A stretch of DNA of 56,959 bases from an uncultured Flavobacteriaceae bacterium (GTDB taxonomy: Bacteria; Bacteroidota; Bacteroidia; Flavobacteriales; Flavobacteriaceae): contig CALDUF010000059.1 of NCBI GenBank assembly GCA_937923515.1, forward strand, positions 1 to 56,959, read 5' to 3'. Every line of letters starts with the position of its first letter. Within the stretch, counting starts at the first letter, position 1. The notes beneath the pieces are model-generated. The model worked only from the letters and a program-made list of their open reading frames with translations, ran no database searches and was not told the DNA's origin. Made by a program: the position numbers and the translations under genes. This document shows, piece by piece, positions 8,655-27,895 of this stretch.

Positions 8655-8659
8655 ATTTG

Positions 8660-8734
8660 TCGGGATGACAGGATTTGAACCTGCGACCACACGGCCCCCA
8701 GCCGTGTACGCTAACCGGACTGCGCCACATCCCG
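8660..8734 (-). tRNA. tRNA-Pro (anticodon GGG)
   Basis: Read on the minus strand: acceptor stem CGGGATG/CATCCCG with discriminator A, a D-arm with GGTTA loop, anticodon stem CACGG/CCGTG enclosing loop CTGGGGG (anticodon GGG, reading CCC and CCU), and T-arm GCAGG-TTCAAAT-CCTGT. CCA is not encoded. It stands alone and is followed by a strong hairpin. Confidence 0.95.
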
Positions 8735-26291: not shown

Positions 26292-27254
26292 ATGAAAATA
26301 GTAGTTTTAGACGGCTATACACTAAACCCAGGAGATTTAAACTGGGATAAATTAAAAACCTTTGGTAATGTTACCGTTTTTGATAGAACAGCTTACAACG
26401 ATGTTGATATTATTAGGAATATTGGTGATGCCGAAATTATTTTCACAAACAAAACACCCATCAACAAAAATGTTTTGCAAAGTGCTACTGCATTAAAATA
26501 TATAGGCGTTTTAGCAACTGGATATAATGTTGTTGATATAGCAACCGCTAAAGCAAACGACGTTACAGTAACTAATGTACCAGACTATAGTTCGCAATCT
26601 GTTGCGCAATTTACTATGGCATTAATTTTAGAATTATGTCACCACATAGGCGATCATAACCATGCTGTACAAGAAGGGGATTGGGTGAAAAGTAAAGACT
26701 TTTCGTTTTGGAACTACCCATTAATTGAATTAGCTGGAAAAACACTCGGCCTTATTGGATTTGGTAAAATTGGTAAAGCCACAGCAAAATTAGCTGAAGC
26801 CTTCGGCATGAAAGTTTTAGTATTTAATAGAACGGAATATTCTGAATTTGAAAATGAAAATTTAAAATTCGCCACGTTGGATGATGTTTTACAAAATTCA
26901 GATTTCATAAGCTTACATTGCCCTTTAACTCCAGAAACACAAGGTATTATTAACGCAGATTCAATTGAAAAAATGAGAGATACTGCGTTTTTAATCAATA
27001 CATCAAGAGGACCTTTAGTAAATGAGCTAGATTTGGCTAATGCACTAAATAATAATAGAATTTCTGGAGCTGCTATTGATGTAATTTCTACAGAACCAAT
27101 GCAAGCCGAAAACCCGTTATTGAGAACAAAAAACTGTATAATAACACCGCATATTGCCTGGGCGCCTAAAGAAGCACGCCAACGATTGATGGATACAACT
27201 ATTGAAAATCTAAACACTTTTATAAAAGGCAACCCACAAAATGTTATAAACTAA
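26292..27254 (+). CDS. D-2-hydroxyacid dehydrogenase
   Basis: A 320-residue NAD-dependent dehydrogenase. The Rossmann motif is LGLIGFGKIGKATAKLAEAF. The substrate Arg lies in INTSRGPLVNE, a Glu in DVISTEPMQAENPLL, and the catalytic His in CIITPHIAWAP. It resembles glycerate or hydroxypyruvate dehydrogenases; the substrate is uncertain. It is monocistronic and ends at a strong terminator shared with the convergent tRNA unit. Confidence 0.92.
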   Translation: MKIVVLDGYTLNPGDLNWDKLKTFGNVTVFDRTAYNDVDIIRNIGDAEIIFTNKTPINKNVLQSATALKYIGVLATGYNVVDIATAKANDVTVTNVPDYSSQSVAQFTMALILELCHHIGDHNHAVQEGDWVKSKDFSFWNYPLIELAGKTLGLIGFGKIGKATAKLAEAFGMKVLVFNRTEYSEFENENLKFATLDDVLQNSDFISLHCPLTPETQGIINADSIEKMRDTAFLINTSRGPLVNELDLANALNNNRISGAAIDVISTEPMQAENPLLRTKNCIITPHIAWAPKEARQRLMDTTIENLNTFIKGNPQNVIN

Positions 27255-27288
27255 AAAAGACTTTTCATAAAAATGAAAAGTCTTTTTT
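27253..27288. terminator. Bidirectional terminator between the dehydrogenase and the tRNA-Pro unit
   Basis: A-run with GACTTTTCAT, a 4-base loop, ATGAAAAGTC and a T-run form a stem of about 16 bp. It starts within the last codons of the dehydrogenase gene and lies directly after the tandem hairpin repeats of the minus-strand tRNA unit, so it can end both transcripts. Confidence 0.88.
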
Positions 27289-27293
27289 TGGAT

Positions 27294-27454
27294 GGTCACG
27301 CTTTGCGGCGTGACGACTTCTATGTTGTCGGGGTGGTCACGCTTTGCGGCGTGACGACCTCTTGTTGTCGGGGTGGTCACGCTTTGTGGCGTGACGACCT
27401 CCTGTTGTCGGGGTGGTCACGCTTTGTGGCGTGACGACCTCCTGTTGTCGGGGT
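27294..27454 (-). repeat. Four tandem 40-41 bp hairpin repeats mimicking the tRNA 3' half
   Basis: Units begin at 27294, 27335, 27375 and 27415. Read on the minus strand, each has GAGGTC (or AAGTC), a hairpin GTCACGC-CACAAA-GCGTGAC (CGCAAA in two units), then CACCCCG and the trailer GACAACA. GAGGTC, CACCCCG and GACAACA are the variable loop, 3' acceptor strand and trailer of the neighbouring tRNA-Pro(TGG); the hairpin takes the place of the T-arm. The units are nearly identical and touch each other with no spacers. They lie between the tRNA 3' end and the terminator, so they should be transcribed with the tRNA. Confidence 0.92.
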
Positions 27455-27522
27455 GGCAGGATTCGAACCTGCGACCTCCGCGTCCCAAACGCGGCGCGAT
27501 AACCGGGCTACGCTACACCCCG
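27448..27522 (-). tRNA. tRNA-Pro (anticodon TGG)
   Basis: Acceptor CGGGGTG/CACCCCG with discriminator A, D-arm with CGGTTA loop, anticodon stem CCGCG/CGCGG around TTTGGGA (anticodon TGG), T-arm GCAGG-TTCGAAT-CCTGC. CCA is not encoded. Its first ten bases (27513-27522) are also the last codons and TAG stop of the GIY-YIG gene. There is only this one intact copy in the window, and the nearest promoter lies about 365 bases upstream, beyond the GIY-YIG gene and a remodelled tRNA copy. Confidence 0.96.
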
Positions 27523-27755
27523 AAATAGTTATCTAAATATCGTTTTGCGCCTCTTTTTTTAATTCGCTTTTCTAAAACCATAGCTTCAGAACGCGTTTTA
27601 AGCTCAATTTGCAAAACTAATTCCCAAGGTGCGCCTGTCGTAGTGGATGGCACACGCCCTAGGTTATGTCTTTCTAATCTCTTATCAATATCACTAGTTT
27701 GACCTATGTAATATCTAGAACGTTTTTTACTAAAAAGTATGTACACTACAAACAT
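27513..27755 (-). CDS. GIY-YIG nuclease-family protein
   Basis: A complete 80-residue single-domain GIY-YIG protein: VYIL (GIY strand, residue 4), YYIGQT (YIG strand, residue 15), KRLERHNLG with the conserved Arg and His, PWELV, and the metal-binding Glu62 in EAMVLEKRIKKR. It is close to the COG2827/YhbQ-type stand-alone nucleases, which in other contexts cut branched or specific DNA. The ATG at 27755 follows the remodelled tRNA copy by 12 bases, so that structure would be its 5' leader. The final residues NYFGV and the stop are written in the tRNA leader and acceptor sequence. Confidence 0.92.
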   Translation of the reverse strand: MFVVYILFSKKRSRYYIGQTSDIDKRLERHNLGRVPSTTTGAPWELVLQIELKTRSEAMVLEKRIKKRGAKRYLDNYFGV

Positions 27756-27767
27756 ATGTTCTTTTTA

Positions 27768-27866
27768 GTGGGTGGTCACGCCTCTAGCGTGACGACCTCC
27801 GCGTCCCAAACGCGGCGCGATAATAACGCCAAGGCGTTATCTACGTCAGGGCTACGATACACCCCG
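27768..27866 (-). pseudogene. Remodelled tRNA-Pro(TGG) copy with hairpins in place of the D-loop and T-arm
   Basis: On the minus strand it starts CGGGGTGTATCGTAGCCC like the intact tRNA. The D-loop bases GGT are then replaced by 26 bases containing ATAACGCC-TT-GGCGTTAT. The anticodon arm CCGCG-TTTGGGA-CGCGG and GAGGTC are unchanged. The T-arm is replaced by GTCACGC-TAGAG-GCGTGAC, and the 3' acceptor strand is CACCCAC, pairing with five of seven bases. It cannot be a working tRNA, but it still folds into a cloverleaf-like structure directly ahead of the GIY-YIG start codon. Confidence 0.85.
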
Positions 27867-27887
27867 AAATAGTTATCTAAGCGGATG

Positions 27888-27895
27888 CAAATATA
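27888..27895 (-). promoter_or_regulatory. -7 box (TATATTTG) of the tRNA-Pro/GIY-YIG unit
   Basis: Minus-strand TATATTTG is an exact TAnnTTTG match, 21 bases before the 5' end of the remodelled tRNA. This is probably the original tRNA-Pro promoter; it is the only good candidate for the whole unit down to the terminator at 27253. Confidence 0.6.

Follow-up and report, generated by a model that had tools for sequence, protein, structure and literature searches.

Group I introns with GIY-YIG homing endonucleases interrupt tRNA genes and the tRNA stays functional, and integrative elements and phages use tRNA genes as attachment sites. At tyrT/rtT of Escherichia coli, the tRNA is followed by tandem repeats that each include part of its 3' end, and we know of no nuclease gene there. 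Cyanobacterial small dispersed repeats and REP sequences are short palindromes scattered in genomes. The tRNA region of T-even phages encodes SegB, a free-standing GIY-YIG homing endonuclease whose cuts fall inside tRNA genes and whose activity is required for tandem repeats of tRNA plus segB (PMC13096335). Its motif, RAWTSGAAC, is present at 23 of 83 sites; it boosts cutting and is not strictly required (PMC13096335). The locus described here likewise has a free-standing, intron-less GIY-YIG gene in or beside tRNA genes, and tandem amplification of tRNA plus nuclease is common to both systems, here as read from sequence pattern. SegB, however, is phage-borne, whereas the present element is chromosomal, minimal, and marked by palindromes; the consulted portion of the SegB account reports no palindrome-broken dead tRNA copy, rebuilt tRNA, or isotype preference (PMC13096335). 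An earlier statement, in a first-pass annotation of this DNA, that no described element has such a layout therefore needs tempering: SegB is a close functional analogue.

The locus lies in what we call the window, the whole 56,959-nucleotide stretch of DNA from an uncultured Flavobacteriaceae bacterium that was analyzed. Along the minus strand run a promoter, a broken tRNA-Pro copy (here tRNA'), an 80-amino-acid (aa) GIY-YIG gene, and an intact tRNA-Pro(TGG); all features of the order first proposed were present, exactly or within a few bases. The sequence TATATTTG at 27888 to 27895, which we take to be a Bacteroidota-type -7 box, is followed by the outer, native leader of the tRNA transcript (27867 to 27887; aligned with empty-site leaders), whose 3' end is TTAGATAACTATTT. 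Next come tRNA' (27768 to 27866; direct repeats D3 and D4, fold z of -3.25) and the nuclease gene (27513 to 27755; open reading frame, Pfam, predicted fold). The 3' coding end of this gene doubles as the leader of the intact tRNA, repeating TTAGATAACTATTT at 27523 to 27536 (repeat D3), and its stop codon is formed by nucleotides 8 to 10 of that tRNA. The intact tRNA-Pro(TGG) expected behind the insertion was found by ARAGORN and by Rfam (67.8 bits), and was also folded, at 27447 to 27522 on the minus strand, with 27447 or 27448 as the lower bound. Beyond it stand four tandem units (about 27294 to 27446; repeat D1) spaced 40 to 41 bp apart, altered tRNA 3' ends with GTCACGC-n6-GCGTGAC for the T arm, one of which folded with a z of -5.09. 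Four hairpin repeats had been claimed correctly, but the end given for them, 27454, runs into the tRNA. The units resemble the tyrT/rtT repeats and are missing in a related genome (G008) and in all three empty sites described below. A hairpin at 27253 to 27288 (arms 27253 to 27268 and 27273 to 27288; inverted repeat I1) is the native terminator of the tRNA unit, and a related hairpin is present in G008 and G010.

The claimed 32-bp direct repeat at an offset of 344 bp was recovered (27505 to 27536 and 27849 to 27880, 97% identity), and we add a second, of 31 bp at an offset of 321 bp (27472 to 27502 and 27793 to 27823, 100%). tRNA' consists of the acceptor 5' strand, the D arm with an inserted hairpin, and an intact anticodon arm, with the T arm replaced. 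The D-loop palindrome is ATAACGCC-TT-GGCGTTAT (27823 to 27840; sequence and palindrome count), and GTCACGC-n5-GCGTGAC occupies the place of the T arm (27775 to 27793; sequence and palindrome searches). From the two direct repeats, the upstream copy can be understood as a tRNA-Pro with a hairpin inserted in its D loop and its T arm swapped for this second palindrome. The pattern GTCACGCN{3,7}GCGTGA has seven forward matches in the 2.7-Mb genome of the window, and the pattern read backwards has none; six of the seven fall at its two tRNA-Pro(TGG) loci, five of them within the window. This concentration is more than chance.

The first-pass annotation had proposed looking for empty sites in related genomes. 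Three aligned related loci are such sites, without the 344-bp segment, in keeping with its view that the segment came by insertion; an arrangement with never an empty site is not what these genomes hold. In a sister genome the site is filled, with a nuclease 72% identical to that of the window. Across 12 genomes of the genus there are 23 intact tRNA-Pro(TGG) copies, four with the nuclease and one with tRNA' only, and both occupied and empty alleles are present, in a comparison between species. The TATATTTG box is identical in the three empty sites and in one other filled site. Being common to empty and filled sites, it marks the tRNA's own native promoter, on which the element rides, and the claim that the tRNA had been put under the element's own transcript is not supported. 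All three empty sites also have GATAA in their leaders, so these sites may be excised rather than never occupied. At a further locus, G000:C73, a nuclease remnant was searched for and none was found.

As a class, tRNA genes are where this nuclease family resides, in keeping with the tRNA-targeting role proposed at the outset. Among loci chosen independently of similarity to the Pro clade, 69 of the 74 with a nuclease of at least 60 bits lie at most 400 bp from a tRNA, and all 69 are on its strand, compared with only 7 of 34 loci below 60 bits that are next to a same-strand tRNA; the count covers the best-scoring places and 60 further places picked from the match lists, not all places, after removal of 18 hand-listed duplicate loci and of loci cut by a contig end that have no tRNA. 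Nuclease matches at E 1e-12 occur in 100 of 198 genomes of the phylum. Eleven tRNA isotypes are occupied, and the tRNAs differ among species. The same layout is seen in named type or isolate strains and in single-contig genomes, truncated or nuclease-less copies also occur, and the sequence pattern includes tandem arrays of up to eight units with a spacing of about 310 to 405 bp. Figures for the Pro clade, in the counts of partial copies, palindromes, lost arms, and stop codon positions and on the nuclease tree, lean on 80 loci picked by likeness to the window protein (the best 80 of 278 in a genome-contig scan), the titles of which presumably all name Bacteroidota.

Relatives at other tRNAs, with matching partial copies, had also been proposed as something to look for, and they are frequent. 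Beyond the other side of the gene, 94 of 127 loci have a partial copy of the same tRNA that exceeds the 99th percentile of controls; these include Pro units filed under nearby tRNA-Ser, so the test is conservative. Once loci assigned to Ser or tmRNA had been set aside, along with regions shorter than 110 bp, an extra G+C palindrome is present in 104 of 121 partial-copy regions, against 7 of 117 outer stretches and 95 of 1210 shuffles. None of the 86 scorable copies (after loci with short flanks, an alignment score below 42, or undefinable arms were dropped) has both the anticodon arm and the T arm. In type A, the type of the window, the element would carry the 5' half and sit between promoter and tRNA; in type B, it would carry the 3' half and the terminator and sit after the tRNA. 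The T arm is missing from 58 of 59 type A copies, and among the Pro-TGG copies of this type it is lost, with the anticodon arm kept, in 34 of 43 scorable cases. Type B copies all lack the anticodon arm (27/27), and 21 of the 27 keep the T arm.

Our main reading, to which we assign a probability of roughly 0.6, is that the window locus is one member of a large family of very small Bacteroidota mobile elements in tRNA genes, and that the element is free-standing and tied to one isoacceptor, homing into a tRNA gene that it splits and then restores from sequence it carries. The unit would be a stand-alone GIY-YIG gene with a complete or partial copy of the same tRNA on either side. Its nuclease would cut a tRNA gene of the matching isoacceptor that holds no element, and repair would draw on an occupied locus via recombination in tRNA sequence. 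The recipient's own half would stay behind as the dead copy, tRNA', marked close to the junction by a short G+C palindrome. The element-carried half and the recipient's other half would together make up the rebuilt tRNA. Recombination between direct repeats could then produce tandem arrays or a return to the empty site. We infer that cleavage by the nuclease is the driver, that the palindrome marks the cut, and that occupied sites are immune. The essential role of the target may also protect the element, as first suggested.

Nuclease lineages track the tRNA isoacceptor, not the locus. On a nuclease tree built from 142 rows and 74 columns, with 63 of 139 inner branches open, the isoacceptor label changes 30 times, against at least 61 in 200 shuffles; the locus label changes 11 times, a number that 300 shuffles also span (mean 13.1, minimum 8). 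Nuclease genes at two different tRNA-Pro loci of one genome (G004) are 97.7% identical to each other and 72.5 to 77.6% identical to those of two genus-mates, and this pair has identical inner leaders and locus-specific outer leaders. Other within-genome pairs are 89.5, 84.5, and 82.6% identical, and the pair L204/L199, in which the L204 gene is frame-broken, 39.7%. The outer leader or terminator differs from the inner one in L125, L126, and L130, matching the homing model. Contrary to it, inner and outer terminators are alike in L005, L013, L015, L100, L123, and L223, as are inner and outer leaders in the window, G000:C73, and L184; such loci would call for a donor from the same lineage, or else for tandem duplication or conversion at a later time. 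Comparison of these sequences establishes empty and filled sites, co-orientation, isoacceptor fidelity without locus fidelity, arrays, and purifying selection on the nuclease, the last from dN/dS values of 0.06 to 0.40 in 14 pairs.

The window protein belongs to the GIY-YIG nuclease superfamily: it matches Pfam PF01541 with 57.2 bits (E 2e-15), its predicted structure has the GIY-YIG fold (pLDDT 95), and in an alignment of 24 sequences including the window's, Y5, Y16, R26, H30, and E62 are invariant and G18 nearly so, residues with a catalytic role in these nucleases. SegB is larger and has further domains, and a separate DNA-binding module is typical of free-standing GIY-YIG homing endonucleases. 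By Pfam and predicted fold the 80-aa protein has one GIY-YIG domain only, and no DNA-binding module was found in it. This weighs against homing, as the bare catalytic domain leaves isoacceptor discrimination unexplained and, among solved proteins, both profile and fold place it nearest to UPF0213 and SLX1, the latter a structure-specific nuclease. The intact tRNA beside the nuclease also looks like an unprotected target. By our own reading, the SegB motif matches the T loop GTTCGAATC when this is reverse-complemented, and the tRNA' of the window is the copy in which the T arm has been replaced. As a general rule of immunity, loss of this T-loop motif was rejected, since it fits type A (58/59) but fails in type B, where the T arm kept in 21 of 27 copies means that loss of one common site cannot explain immunity.

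An SLX1-like, structure-specific nuclease might instead attack tRNA genes and palindromes at their hairpins or cruciforms, promoting tandem duplication and gene conversion among like tRNA genes with no target sequence and no true homing; isoacceptor fidelity would then come from homologous recombination alone. The preferred break positions (34/43 in Pro-TGG type A, 27/27 in type B) and the colonization of new isoacceptors are not readily explained in this way, and we consider the account unlikely even though it suits the nearest relatives of the protein and its want of a DNA-binding module. It would also suit the restriction of movement to loci with a shared tRNA, the likeness of arrays and matching inner and outer terminators to tandem duplication, and the fact that tRNA arms and palindromes are both hairpins. 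Of 78 type A loci, 54 have the stop codon of the nuclease within the tRNA, so that 5' processing of the tRNA would yield a stop-less nuclease mRNA, a possible feedback. This would fit a host-owned unit with a locus function such as tRNA dosage control, or one in which broken tRNA copies act as decoys and so keep integrating elements away from tRNA attachment sites. Purifying selection and the presence of matches in about half of the phylum genomes (100/198) speak for host ownership, yet the nuclease is patchy in the genus (4/23 tRNA-Pro(TGG) loci), the tRNAs differ by species with switching of loci, and truncated or nuclease-less copies exist, making this idea improbable. Ordinary vertical duplication of a tRNA beside an unrelated small gene, or an artifact of a fragmented assembly (the genome of the window is in 136 contigs and 88% complete), is very improbable, and the artifact was rejected, as the layout recurs in the strains and single-contig genomes noted above, same-strand tRNA adjacency goes far beyond that of low-scoring GIY-YIG genes, and empty sites exist.

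Of the described systems, a group I intron also keeps the tRNA functional, but by splicing, where the homing element would do so by duplication; we rejected an intron because Rfam at the gathering score found no intron family in the window, and only two tRNAs. Type B units resemble tRNA-integrating elements in bringing a new 3' end for the tRNA and in producing direct repeats of that end, whereas type A units bring the 5' end instead, and the dead copy with a palindrome is a feature of the present family. At about 310 to 405 bp, the units lack room for both the nuclease and an integrase gene. In the 344-bp inserted segment, the long coding frame, which is the one scanned, is the GIY-YIG gene, and an integrase element was rejected on this basis. 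Beyond Bacteroidota, the searches comprised the genome-contig scan (best 80 of 278) and phage, plasmid, and viral sets. The window protein had no tblastn match at 1e-5 among 50,697 phage records and no confirmed match in viral contigs, and so showed no sequence relatedness to phage SegB in these searches; phage or plasmid carriage was rejected, with no carrier found in the phage, plasmid, or viral searches. In titles and abstracts among the matches listed, with preprints and most subscription journals outside the scope, GIY-YIG genes in Bacteroidota tRNA genes are undescribed, and in the main text of a 2006 survey of the superfamily "bacteroid" occurs 0 times (PMC1564403).

Similar palindromes are scattered over these genomes, a point against the homing reading. 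Compared with REP sequences and other small dispersed palindromes (RepRanger, PMC12306157, in the part consulted), those of the present family sit in most dead tRNA copies beside GIY-YIG genes. Palindrome abundance correlated with nuclease count over 88 of 148 genomes (rho 0.32, P 0.002), the 60 left out all being smaller than 2.5 Mb and the counts (E 1e-8) including GIY-YIG genes away from tRNAs; over the 61 genomes of at least 2.5 Mb, rho was 0.07 (P 0.57), and the former value probably reflects genome size. By family, f1 gave a rho of 0.46 (P 0.037, n = 21), and f5 and f7 were negative and not significant. A role of the nuclease as a REP/RAYT-like mobilizer of scattered palindromes is not supported by these figures, though it may exist. 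GIY-YIG genes also lie downstream of tmRNA at L078, L141, and L150, and no convincing tmRNA copy was found in the 1.8 kb downstream (scores of 21 to 22), so tmRNA was not counted as a further target.

In its widest form, the homing reading would describe a phylum-wide, intron-free class in Bacteroidota, in which bare, roughly 80-aa nucleases, with every lineage tied to one isoacceptor, split a tRNA gene and rebuild it from a carried half without splicing, a palindrome marks the abandoned half and removes the cut site, and the type A message mostly loses its stop codon at tRNA maturation. For this whole set of features together we would put the chances at slightly under even. If it is true, tRNA genes across much of the phylum would host a minimal selfish element that solves the problem of an essential target by duplication, not splicing. 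Many very small natural nucleases would be bound to different tRNA genes, making site finding by a bare GIY-YIG domain testable. Such elements would account in part for the scrambled tRNA copies in these genomes, for some false tRNA-SeC calls, and for contigs that break off at tRNA genes, and the amplification of tRNA genes driven by SegB would have its counterpart on the chromosome.

The nuclease locus of the window lies on the minus strand and opens with a TATATTTG box (27888-27895), which we take to be a -7 box. A leader follows, and then a broken copy of tRNA-Pro, here called tRNA' (27866-27768), with a palindrome in its D loop (27840-27823) and GTCACGC-n5-GCGTGAC in place of its T arm (27793-27775). 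Next come the GIY-YIG nuclease gene (27755-27513), an intact tRNA-Pro(TGG) (27522-27447), four hairpin units (27446-27294), and finally a terminator (27288-27253). tRNA' and the intact tRNA share a 32-bp repeat, made up of 14 nt of leader and tRNA nucleotides 1 to 18, and a 31-bp repeat that runs from where the D arm ends to where the T arm begins; the D-loop palindrome falls between the two. The nuclease gene overlaps the 5' end of the intact tRNA, such that its TAG is tRNA nucleotides 8 to 10 and its final codons form the tRNA leader. The four hairpin units are tRNA 3' halves in which the T arm has been swapped for a palindrome of the tRNA' type. The tRNA-Pro(GGG) of the window (8659-8734) has no adjoining GIY-YIG match there; in two genus-mates (L010 and L011), this tRNA has a nuclease unit.

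The first-pass annotation proposed that the nuclease gene and altered tRNA had arrived by insertion or duplication, and comparison within the genus supports an inserted segment. Intact tRNA-Pro(TGG) is present in 23 copies across 12 genus genomes. Four carry the nuclease (G000:C59, which is the window, G008:C56, G004:C20, and G004:C11), one has tRNA' and both palindromes without the nuclease (G000:C73), and 18 have neither nuclease nor tRNA' between 300 bp before the tRNA and 200 bp after it. G000:C73 (L036), the second such locus of the window's genome, has a spacer of ~100 bp without a recognisable nuclease. When the window locus and G008 are aligned with the empty sites of G010, G003, and G001, promoter, leader, and tRNA are continuous in the empty sites, which lack an extra segment of 344 bp in the window and a shorter, similar one in G008. 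On visual inspection, the 2-hydroxyacid dehydrogenase flank downstream is likewise common to G010 and G003. As the -7 box is identical in all five loci, filled and empty, the promoter is native. Neither G008 nor any of the three empty sites has the 3' hairpin units. The alignments provide good support for the window segment being an insertion, and restoration of the tRNA is also well supported by comparison.

The window locus belongs to a family. Profile searches using ten relatives gave matches in 54 of the 148 order-level genomes (E of 1e-8) and 100 of the 198 phylum-level genomes (E of 1e-12). Among loci picked independently of similarity to the Pro clade, a tRNA lies within 400 bp at 31/33 loci scoring at least 90 bits, 20/21 scoring 75 to 90, and 18/20 scoring 60 to 75, and nuclease and tRNA are co-oriented in every tRNA-linked locus of at least 60 bits. 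In contrast, loci below 60 bits, other GIY-YIG genes that serve as a built-in control, have a tRNA at this distance in just 6/21 and 1/13 cases. At two of the five tRNA-less loci of at least 60 bits (L115 and L245), a tRNA 3' piece adjoins the gene. Across the pooled loci, 218 of 239 distinct matches span >55 model positions; of the 218, 139 have a tRNA within 400 bp, in every case co-oriented with the gene. The adjoining tRNAs include Pro, Arg, Asn, Ala, Val, Met, Leu, Asp, His, Phe, and Ser, several with more than one isoacceptor. This genomic context strongly suggests that tRNA genes are the target class of the family. At L078, L141, and L150, a GIY-YIG gene lies 0.2 to 0.6 kb downstream of a tmRNA gene, with no convincing tmRNA copy found beside it.

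The expectation that such nucleases would sit at other tRNAs with matching partial copies also held: at 94 of 127 loci, a partial copy of the same tRNA across the gene from the intact one exceeded the 99th percentile set by 2,540 controls. Several of the remaining 33 are, by eye, short or heavily altered copies. Where the gene precedes the intact tRNA (type A), the copy is chiefly the 5' part (often 1-22, 1-28, or 1-51), and the nuclease stop codon is within the tRNA at 54 of 78 loci. Where it follows (type B), the copy is chiefly the 3' part, often from ~45, plus a terminator. Of 86 scorable copies, not one retains the anticodon arm together with the T arm, the latter being missing in 58/59 type A copies and the anticodon arm in 27/27 type B copies. 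A G+C palindrome foreign to the intact tRNA occurs in 104/121 partial-copy regions, compared with 95/1,210 shuffled regions and 7/117 stretches further out. Similar palindromes are scattered across these genomes (TCCCG-n-CGGGA has 76 forward matches in G004 and 81 in G160, and the backwards pattern none), so those of tRNA' probably came from a pool spread over the genome and not from the nuclease. In a dead copy, they may remove the cut site, weaken repeat recombination, or prevent the copy from serving as a tRNA. Four dead copies (L168, L213, L243, and L034) have, by eye, a second insert at tRNA position ~9-16, a palindrome followed by CAGG, which has the look of a defined module. At L015, L069, and L076, ARAGORN calls tRNA-SeC(tca) on sequences next to the nuclease gene that look like broken tRNA-Val copies; copies of this kind may be a source of false tRNA annotations.

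Mapped onto a 142-domain nuclease tree, the tRNA label (isoacceptor and side, given for 116 rows) requires 30 changes, and none of 200 shuffles requires fewer than 61; for isoacceptor alone the figure is 26 (shuffle minimum, 57), and without Pro rows it is 20 (minimum, 34). Linkage to tRNA-Ser among 43 Pro-TGG type A rows changes 11 times, against a mean of 13.1 and minimum of 8 in 300 shuffles. Because the tRNA label falls far below its shuffles and the linkage label resembles them, nuclease lineages are faithful to the isoacceptor and not to the locus. The nuclease genes of the two G004 loci are 97.7% identical to each other and 72.5 to 77.6% identical to those of two genus-mates; their inner leaders are identical, and their outer leaders differ. 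Other within-genome pairs are 82.6 to 89.5% identical, except one at 39.7% with a frame-broken member. The dN/dS of 0.06 to 0.40 across 14 pairs, with dS saturated in some, indicates that the protein is maintained. In the window it has 80 residues, forming a single GIY-YIG domain (mean pLDDT of 95 in the predicted structure) with no added DNA-binding module. The closest solved structures are UPF0213 BH0048, alone at E <0.001 in the fold search, and SLX1, followed by I-TevI and UvrC domains. At the thresholds applied, no relative turned up in phage, plasmid, or viral contig sequences.

The economical reading of the locus is homing, in which an empty tRNA gene would be cut, repair would proceed off an occupied locus via tRNA homology, and the recipient's tRNA half would stay behind as tRNA'. 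The differing inner and outer terminators of type B loci L125, L126, and L130 fit an element that brings the inner half along and encounters an outer half native to the site. However, the two terminators are alike in L005, L013, L015, L100, L123, and L223, and in L184 ~50 bp of leader is repeated at either side. These cases count against homing, as they call for tandem duplication, a donor of the same lineage, or conversion at a later time. The longest tandem array has 8 units 359 to 368 bp apart (G075), with others of 5 units 365 to 366 bp apart (G160) and 4 units 322 bp apart (G348). The arrays at L115, L116, L248, and L256 (8, 5, 4, and 3 similar genes at 322- to 368-bp spacing) have a broken tRNA piece in each unit. 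A contig end cuts 32 of the best 80 of 278 loci by likeness to the window protein, perhaps reflecting repeats that break assembly.

The homing steps gain plausibility from published SegB behavior. SegB cuts within tRNA genes, with the motif RAWTSGAAC at 23/83 sites; tandem amplification requires SegB activity, and recombination is thought to connect the tRNA 5' region with the segB 3' region (PMC13096335). By our reading, the motif matches T loops such as GTTCGAATC in reverse complement, and the part missing from tRNA' in the clade of the window locus is the T arm. Contrary to a single T-arm rule, type B copies mostly retain the T arm. Among the literature matches listed, none describes a tRNA-rebuilding GIY-YIG arrangement. 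The arrangement is real and recurrent. Our best reading, to which we give a probability of roughly 60%, is that it represents a minimal form of free-standing GIY-YIG homing that resides in the chromosome and rebuilds the tRNA, with an enzymology that we infer.
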